A DNA stretch of 64,000 nucleotides. Origin: Oscillospiraceae bacterium. GTDB taxonomy: Bacteria > Bacillota > Clostridia > Oscillospirales > Oscillospiraceae. How positions within the stretch are numbered: the first letter of the stretch is position 1; each line of letters begins with the position of its first letter. The stretch lies in contig JAAWQM010000005.1 in assembly GCA_022800525.1 (NCBI GenBank), forward strand, positions 1 to 64,000. The letters run 5' to 3'. Positions 37,863 through 40,901 of this stretch are shown here, one piece after another. A program made the position numbers and the translations under genes. The notes beneath the pieces were generated by a model that saw only the letters and a program-made list of their open reading frames with translations, had not been told where the DNA came from and searched no databases.

Positions 37863-38174
37863 GGGAACATACCTCCAAGAATTTGATGGAAGCGCCGATG
37901 CGCAAAATTCCATATCACAGGACTTACATCATAACACATCTTGTCCCGGATTGCAAGGGGGAAGGGCAGGAACAGGGCAAAAATTTTCGATAAAAATTGA
38001 CAATTTCCACACATATTACAAAACGGGACAACCGCCACCCGGCACGGTGATATGCAGCACCTCGCATTGCTGCTGGGCCTCGATAAGGATATTGATAGCC
38101 CGTTCGGTTTCTTGAAACAGATGCAGATACATTTTTTCCCAGTCTGTCATACCACCTCGCACCCCAGTCATTAT

Positions 38175-38205
38175 ATTACTTCCGACCTTTCGGTTCGGAA
38201 GTAAT
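38175..38205. repeat. Dispersed repeat family A, single hairpin
   Basis: attacttccga-cctttcggt-tcggaagtaat; loop is the reverse complement of the copy 1 loop accgaaagg. Confidence 0.6.
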
Positions 38206-38223
38206 AAATTGCTTTGATTTACA

Positions 38224-38665
38224 CTAGAATACCTCTAAGAGGTGATGCAAAGGGGCTTTTGCTATCTCGTCAGCGAAAGAGGTAGTCTCTTTTTTGTGGG
38301 GAAGGATTGCGGGATAATACTTTTCACAATACATTCTTTTGATTTTTAAGGCGGCGTACTTAGGTATTTCTTTAATATCGCCTAAAATTTCTTCTATTTG
38401 TTCAGCGGTATATAAAGGCTCGTCAAGCTCTGCCATTCTTTCACCTTGCTTCTGCCGCTTCTTTTTCTTCTGCAATTCCTCCCGCCGCTTCTGCTTCATT
38501 TCAGCGGTGAAAGGGATTTTTTCAGCGTCCAACTGTGGCAGATAAGTCGGGGCTTCCGCTCCCTTTTTCTTTCCAAGGCTTAATAGAGTGTTCAATCAGT
38601 GCTTTATTGTCCAGTCCCCGAAAGGGCATTTCTTGCCAGTGCTTGCGCTGTTTTTGTTCTGCCAT
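38224..38665 (-). pseudogene. Hypothetical accessory protein, frameshifted
   Basis: MAEQKQRKHWQEMPFRGLDNKALIEHSIKPWKEKGS in one frame; EAPTYLPQLDAEKIPFTAEMKQKRREELQKKKKRQKQGERMAELDEPLYTAEQIEEIL... in the other. Confidence 0.55.
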
Positions 38666-38766
38666 ATTTGTCGCCTCCTCTTTGTAGTATGGGTATAGTG
38701 TAAAGGTTTGCTATTGAATTATCAAGAGGAAAGGCGGCTTGTATTGATAATACAAGCCGCCTTATA

Positions 38767-39448
38767 TTATTCTACGATAATTGCATCATAATAATGCCCT
38801 TTGTATCCACCAACATTTTTAGCCGAAAATGTAATTTCCTTTCCTTTCCTTTCCTTGGTATTGACTGACATCAACGCTACTGTCAAAATAAACTAACCTT
38901 CGATATTCGAGATTACCACCTTCAGAAAACTCAACATTCCATGCACCGGGAAAACTATCATTTTTATTTTCTGGCGTTCCAGTATATTCATAAATATCTG
39001 TTACAAAATAGGCCGGATTTACTTCATAAACATATATATTTTGCGGAATACCAGGGGCTAATGGCTCCTCTGTAATTTCTGCTCCTGTATTTCCAACAAT
39101 AGTCACGAGTTGTCCGTTTTCTAAATTAGCAATATCTTCTACAGGAAGATAAACTTTGAAACGAACAATAGTATTTGATTCTATTTGAATATGGTCAGCA
39201 CATATTTCACGAATTAACCCTTTTATTGAAAGTGTCTTTCCGCAGTATGTTTGTGTTGCCCGTGCAATATTATTGGCTGTTTCTCCTGCTATTTTCGCCG
39301 CATCACATTCCGTTGCCTGCTCCAACATTTCCTCCTTTGTCATGCCGCCGCTGGGCGTGTTGGTGTCCCCTGCTCCGCTATCGCCGCCACAGGCCACCAG
39401 AGCGAGGGCCAGAGCCGCCGCAAGGATAAGGGCTAATAGTTTCTTCAT
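38767..39448 (-). CDS. Lipoprotein with OB-fold-like domain; C-terminal frame set by a (GGAAA)n tract
   Basis: Lipobox LALALVACGGD. As sequenced the ORF stops at 38819 (QGKERKGNYIFG*); the alternative frame EITFSAKNVGGYKGHYYDAIIVE* ends at 38767. Confidence 0.7.
38835..38854. repeat. Pentanucleotide tract (GGAAA)4 on minus strand
   Basis: Plus strand tttcc x4 directly within the 3' end of the lipoprotein ORF. Confidence 0.95.
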
Positions 39449-39586
39449 TGTGTCTACCTCCGTCTAATTTTGTTGTTCGCTGGGGTATTGCAATCATTTT
39501 AGTACAAATATTTATTAAAGTCAATAGTGAATATTTTTACTCTGCTACTCTTTAGGCATCATAATGCAAAAGGAGAAACGCAGACT

Positions 39587-39796
39587 ATGGAATACTACAT
39601 TAGCTATTTAAGAGGATTGAGAGAAGATAATGATTTAACCCAAAGAGAAGTAGCAGAGATATTAGGAACTTCACAGACTATGTATGCGAGATATGAGCGT
39701 GGAGCAAATGAACTCCCAATCAGGCACTTAATAGCACTATGCAAATACTACAATGTATCAGCAGATATTGTATTAGGGCTGAAAGGGAGAAGATAG
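39587..39796 (+). CDS. XRE-family small transcriptional regulator
   Basis: LRGLREDNDLTQREVAEILGTSQTMYARYERGANELPIRHLIALCKYYNVSADIVLGL. Confidence 0.9.
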   Translation: MEYYISYLRGLREDNDLTQREVAEILGTSQTMYARYERGANELPIRHLIALCKYYNVSADIVLGLKGRR

Positions 39797-39949
39797 AGAA
39801 AAGTCTGTAAAAGTTATATCTTTATAGACATATTGAAAACCCACAAAACGGCCCTGATTTTGTCTCTGCAAATTGTTCTTAATTTTTCAGACGCTTATGT
39901 TATACTCTTATTATCACAAGAGAGCAAAAGGAGAGTGTAACACATGGAA

Positions 39950-40032
39950 AGCCGGGGAGATTACCGCTCGCAAGGCTATGGGGCTAACAGGCACTACTCG
40001 CTGCACCTTTTACAAGCTGGCAAGGGAATAAG
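39950..40032 (+). pseudogene. Serine recombinase C-terminal HTH remnant
   Basis: KAGEITARKAMGLTGTTRCTFYKLARE* resembles resolvase C-terminal HTH (KAGEITARKAMxxxGxxxxTFYKxxxE). Confidence 0.55.
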
Positions 40033-40407
40033 GGCAAAAACTCCGGGCCGCCGATTTTCGGCGGCCCGTTCGCCATGTTATAGCAAGGTCAATGTTTCTG
40101 CCGCTGGTGACAAACGAAAGTAGTCGCAGGGGAAAGCACATCAGAGCGCACTGGTGAGGCTTTAAGCCTCATTTATGCGCCCTTATTTTTTGTAATTCAG
40201 CCTACCCTTGCTCGTTTTAAATACAGAAAATGAGTTCAAAAGCTGGCACAGGAAACACTTGAAAAATGACAGTAAATACAATACTTTTACAGAGCGGCAA
40301 TAGGGTATCTGAGAAAATTATAGAGACTACATGATAGCGACAGTTTGTGGTAAAAAAATTTTTATGATATAATATAAGAAAGTAAGAAGAAAGGAGGTAG
40401 AATAGCT

Positions 40408-40470
40408 ATGTCTTTACAAAGTTACTTGCCTATAATTGCGTTTATGAAAGAAAATAGAGATCATAAGTAG
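40408..40470 (+). CDS. Candidate 20-aa small protein
   Basis: MSLQSYLPIIAFMKENRDHK* behind aaaggaggt and TTGTGG-17-TATAAT. Confidence 0.35.
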   Translation: MSLQSYLPIIAFMKENRDHK

Positions 40471-40901
40471 CAAAATAACGCTATTTCTTATTATTAATAC
40501 AGAAAATAGCATGAAAATTTTAATATGGAACAGAACGAAAAATGAGCATTGATTTTGATAAAATGGGAAAAGAAATCTATAAAGAACTGGAAGAAAGCAT
40601 TTAGAAAGAGGCGGACAAGAGGCAATAAAGAGTAATAGGGCGGCGGCTCGCTCCGCTCGCCGCACCCTGAATTTTAGGTTGATTATCTGCAAAAGTGCTT
40701 ATCTTCTTATGTTTGAAGAGAAAATCAATCTTAAATTTTTCTAAATACGTTCTGTTGCAAGGCTTTTAGCAATTGTGCAAAACAGAGAATTTCACAGTAC
40801 GATTGTACCGCAATTATCCCACATCCGCAACAGATTGTTTATCGGAACCATGGAAATCAATTATGCGGTTTGCAGGGCGCCGTCAAGGGTGAATCGGGCG
40901 C

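Follow-up and report, generated by a model that had tools for sequence, protein, structure and literature searches.

A probable recent GGAAA repeat expansion truncates an OB-fold lipoprotein gene in a decaying mobile element of an Oscillospiraceae bacterium

A lipoprotein gene in a 64,000-nucleotide stretch of DNA from an Oscillospiraceae bacterium (GCA_022800525.1, contig JAAWQM010000005.1, positions 1 to 64,000; hereafter the window) is cut short at a perfect (GGAAA)4 tract. We put at roughly three in four the probability that this is a recent, gene-breaking repeat expansion, that is, a fresh pseudogene in an already decaying element and no evolved contingency locus. In the proposed course of events, a chance two-copy GGAAA run in codons for Gly-Lys-Glu would have grown by two units (+10 bp), either by replication slippage or by a single 10-bp tandem duplication. 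The resulting frame shift would have swapped the last ~22 residues of an OB-fold lipoprotein for a short nonsense tail, and loss of function would be expected to follow.

Results

The tract lies on the minus strand. Its (GGAAA)4 core (38854..38835), which an earlier note made from the sequence had reported, is borne out by the sequence and by TRF, and with two further matching bases it forms a 22-bp period-5 run (TRF: 38835–38856, 4.4 copies, 100% match). When the whole genome was searched with the 20-mer, allowing up to one mismatch, it was matched at the tract only. A first-order Markov simulation built from the dinucleotides of the window itself gave an expectation of 0 to ~0.003 period-5 runs of at least 20 bp per 64 kb, and 20 Mb of simulated sequence contained no period-5 run of 22 bp or more. 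A chance repeat is thereby ruled out.

The tandem repeat sits in-frame in the lipoprotein gene (38819..39448, minus strand), and its copy number sets the reading frame, as in a contingency locus. With four copies, as sequenced, the gene encodes a truncated protein of 209 residues ending in QGKERKGNYIFG; this form keeps an undamaged first OB domain, and no further lesion affects the open reading frame. Two copies would give 223 residues ending in QGKEITFSAKNVGGYKGHYYDAIIVE, and five copies 228 residues with the same tail. Copy numbers of two, five and eight open the tail EITFSAKNVGGYKGHYYDAIIVE, with its stop codon at 38769–38767, while four and seven copies lead to GNYIFG. Three copies give 223 residues with a third, non-homologous tail, and the tail read at three and six copies resembles nothing found in the analysis. 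The frame arithmetic of the earlier note, by which the loss of ten bases or the gain of five opens one and the same tail ending at 38767, proved exact at every repeat number tested. In every close orthologue the C-terminus is homologous to the out-of-frame continuation (38767..38834, minus strand; EITFSAK...DAIIVE), as judged from the orthologue alignment, frame arithmetic and dN/dS, and the continuation contains no additional lesion.

A genome scan identified three close orthologues (43–72% identity): L005 from Flintibacter muris, L006 from an uncultured Firmicutes MAG and L007 from a chicken-gut MAG. Their C-termini read EITFSAK...DAVIIE, EITFSAK...DAVIVE and EITFTAK...DAIIIETGE, respectively, and more distant homologues likewise extend beyond the truncation point. 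None of the three ends in KGNYIFG, the finding that the earlier note had named as contrary to its reading, and a real alternative C-terminus was ruled out, as no close orthologue has such an ending. The GGAAA tandem repeat is absent from all three (the L005 sequence at the position of the tract is GAGGGGAAAGAAATT), and the tract is thus not kept in the orthologues. Since the orthologues end in the tail and lack the repeat, the window allele reads as a lineage-specific frameshift of +10 bp, or two repeat units, relative to the family.

The dN/dS ratio of the body was 0.235 for the window against L005 and 0.295 against L006, and that of the tail, which comprises only 21 codons, was 0.225 and 0.166, respectively. 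These low values point to selection on both tail and body until recently, and therefore suggest that the break is recent. The restored tail had been said to look like real protein, and its conservation in the three orthologues, with a dN/dS of about 0.2, bears this out. A conserved tail is to be expected after a recent break and equally with a working switch, and dN/dS does not decide between them.

To place the lost residues in the fold, we used an AlphaFold2 model of the intact L005 protein (five sequences; mean pLDDT 78.4), in which the first 46 residues are disordered and most of residues 51–230 score about 83–94. The second OB-like domain comprises strands 150–163/166–175, 182–186 and 193–198, a short helix, and strands 211–219 and 223–229. 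The frameshift falls at residues 209–211, so that the second barrel loses both of its final strands. The loss of two strands from a small closed barrel should, on the model, unfold the second domain, and the truncated product, missing these strands, is probably unstable or inactive.

The architecture of the protein is that of a lipobox signal peptide (LVAC) followed by an OB fold, with an OB-like strand order in the AlphaFold2 model. A Foldseek search matched OB-fold proteins, including the Klebsiella lipoprotein 3f1z (TM score by target about 0.6), in agreement with a weak match to the tRNA_anti-like OB-fold lipoprotein family PF12869, for which the window protein scores 22.9 bits, just under the gathering cut-off of 23.5. 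A relative with the same leader (L097) clears this cut-off at 28.3 bits. Unlike the PF12869 lipoproteins such as 3f1z, the window type has two OB-like domains rather than one, and sequence identity is very low (12–14%). Matches of the lipoprotein to NCBIfam were dismissed as signal-peptide noise, and PADLOC returned no match to known defence families. Against PHROG, the L005 protein gave a weak match (phrog_8545, E 0.0027).

Host genes flank the AT-rich island that holds the gene (~2.8 kb, 37950..40800; GC 0.32–0.49 against a background of ~0.60), and the GC profile together with comparison to L093, a more complete version of the element from a congeneric genome (G024), marks the island as a mobile-element remnant. 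L093 served as the reference for lesions. The mobile-element gene adjoining the lipoprotein (MAEQKQRKHW..., 38224..38664, minus strand) carries a +1 frameshift near 38590 and an altered 3' end relative to the intact 145-residue copy in L093. On the plus strand, a divergent Cro/C1-type HTH gene (39527..39796, likely start about 39587) matches HTH_3 at 8e-14 and is RstR-like below the cut-off. It is accompanied by a resolvase remnant (39944..40031, plus strand) in which, compared with the intact 198-residue resolvase of L093, a 509-bp deletion has fused the start codon to the C-terminal HTH. The ends of this deletion are exact 10-bp direct repeats, TGGAAAGCCG (window 39944–40119 against L093 3814–4500), making it a clean example of repeat-mediated deletion. 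Beside it, about 490 bp are missing or were never there, and the window contains no counterpart of the L093 integrase. The MAG of L006 holds another copy of the lipoprotein module (L009, 1629–2206), which has a frameshift in the signal peptide and a shortened body. The lesions in the resolvase, the MAEQK gene and L009 indicate that indels are common in the element and not confined to the repeat. These neighbouring lesions do not prove relaxed selection on the lipoprotein, whose own dN/dS points to selection until recently. The island DNA gave only one match, of 131 bases over the HTH region (MT838489), and none in plasmids; with the lipoprotein likewise unmatched in phage, plasmid and IMG/VR collections, a phage or plasmid source was rejected.

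The 5' end of the lipoprotein gene belongs to a GC-rich leader block of ~140 bp (39345..39484, minus strand) that includes the ribosome-binding site, the signal peptide and the first mature codons, with a GC content of about 0.66–0.72 versus 0.3–0.4 in the body. Across several genera this leader is 82–96% identical in DNA in front of unrelated bodies. The loci listed with it are the window, L005, L006, L008, L009 and L091–L097, and the bodies behind it include a family of 354–364 residues (L094, L095, L096), a 239-residue protein (L093) and the OB-fold type (L005, L006, L008, L097); for a further protein of 266–274 residues in L096, the leader match is 78% over 83 bp. Between the window and L005, differences affect 1 of 27 synonymous sites in the leader, compared with 51 of 104 for the body (Fisher p 5e-6), with dS values of 0.038 and 0.807, respectively. 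A terminator-like inverted repeat (38731..38763, minus strand), detected as a self match on the opposite strand and by DNA comparison, also follows relatives with other bodies, and is common to the window and L093 (86%) although the L093 body is unrelated.

A divergent HTH gene is present upstream in several copies of the module, and the encoded proteins are mostly 19–43% identical, with 89% between L093 and L006. L005 and L095 share the same chromosomal neighbours (exodeoxyribonuclease-like and metF-like, named from sequence) and have different HTH genes and bodies. Recombination in which bodies and regulators are swapped while the leader is conserved accounts best for this pattern. The promoter region that separates the HTH gene from the lipoprotein (window 39488–39551) matches many family genomes with 78–96% identity over 27–69 bp, and this segment is perhaps an HTH-specific operator moving together with its regulator gene. 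A literature search for shared lipoprotein leaders found no fitting account.

Discussion

The tract had been proposed in the earlier note to be a phase-variable contingency locus, at which gain and loss of units would switch the lipoprotein between full-length (two, five or eight copies) and truncated forms. Such a switch would account for a perfect tract far beyond chance in a surface lipoprotein gene, and for the intact tails in the other frame and the still conserved tail. The (CTCTT)n tract of Neisseria opa is likewise a perfect in-frame pentanucleotide repeat in a surface protein gene, with the frame set by copy number. The opa repeat sits in the signal-peptide region, whereas the tract in the window is at the 3' end of its gene, where the off state still yields most of the protein; it also differs from opa in its four copies and its absence from orthologues. 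For pentanucleotides, genome surveys of phase variation in Neisseria and Campylobacter apply a cut-off of five copies (PMC5953494, PMC6321876), and opa loci with 1–4 copies were scored as non-variable in the Neisseria study (PMC5953494). The window tract, one unit short, thus falls below the hypermutable copy number.

The genomic background also argues against a switch. In a partial genome sample of about 387 kb used for repeat statistics, there was no homopolymer of at least 9, neither dinucleotide runs of 10 bp nor tetranucleotide runs of 14 bp occurred, and at the thresholds used the only frame-shifting repeats of at least 20 bp were the tract and one 8-mer with 2.5 copies. This repeat-poor profile, in what is a partial sample, is not like that of a genome using such switches. 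Elsewhere in the same genome (L100, G000 C3, 752–779), a perfect 6-bp repeat, (TCTTAT)4.7, spans 28 bp and would not shift the frame. Viral contigs had no match to the tract flanks and yielded no other tract alleles. Given the copy number, the orthologues without the tract, the repeat-poor sample and a decaying host element that bears two or more further clear lesions, we infer that regular switching is absent and regard phase variation as unlikely.

A sequencing or assembly artefact, with a true allele of two copies, is less probable still. The genome is a draft in 112 contigs, and the adjoining gene also has a 1-base indel. However, a tract of 22 bp is shorter than a normal read and should pose no problem for assembly, insertions of 10 bp are not typical of short-read errors, and the 509-bp deletion in the resolvase demonstrates genuine decay of the island. 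Least probable of all is that the 209-residue form works in this lineage, as its intact first OB domain and otherwise undamaged reading frame might allow, or that translational or transcriptional frameshifting restores the tail, since the tail strands occur in all close homologues and are the last of a closed barrel, and by eye the tract has no slippery heptamer or long homopolymer.

A one-off expansion therefore remains the preferred explanation, and what counts against it is that a single step of +10 is less usual than one of +5. Of the earlier proposal that slippage truncated the lipoprotein, the cutting of the C-terminus by a change in repeat number stands; the route may have been slippage or a 10-bp tandem duplication. 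The tract itself would then be an ordinary gene-breaking repeat expansion, and it carries a caution: calling a contingency locus takes more than a perfect tandem repeat and an intact alternative frame.

As to the element, we tentatively propose, as a possibility we hold with less than even confidence, that gut Oscillospiraceae carry a mobile-element module whose Cro/C1-type regulator and lipoprotein body are swapped by recombination around a fixed 140-bp leader and a shared terminator. Such a module could supply interchangeable surface proteins, possibly excluding phages or rival elements, and a frameshift by repeat expansion may be one way of shedding such a protein. Surface exclusion as its function is a guess, for which the Ltp-type superinfection-exclusion lipoproteins (Streptococcus thermophilus phage TP-J34; PMC3952083) offer a parallel: they too are small surface lipoproteins of a mobile element, with a lipid anchor, a spacer and a functional domain, encoded near a repressor-type gene. 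The domain differs, however, and the PHROG match, obtained with the L005 protein, is weak. The mosaic lipoprotein module that mobile elements of gut Clostridia carry, its leader conserved and its bodies and regulators exchanged, merits a study of its own.
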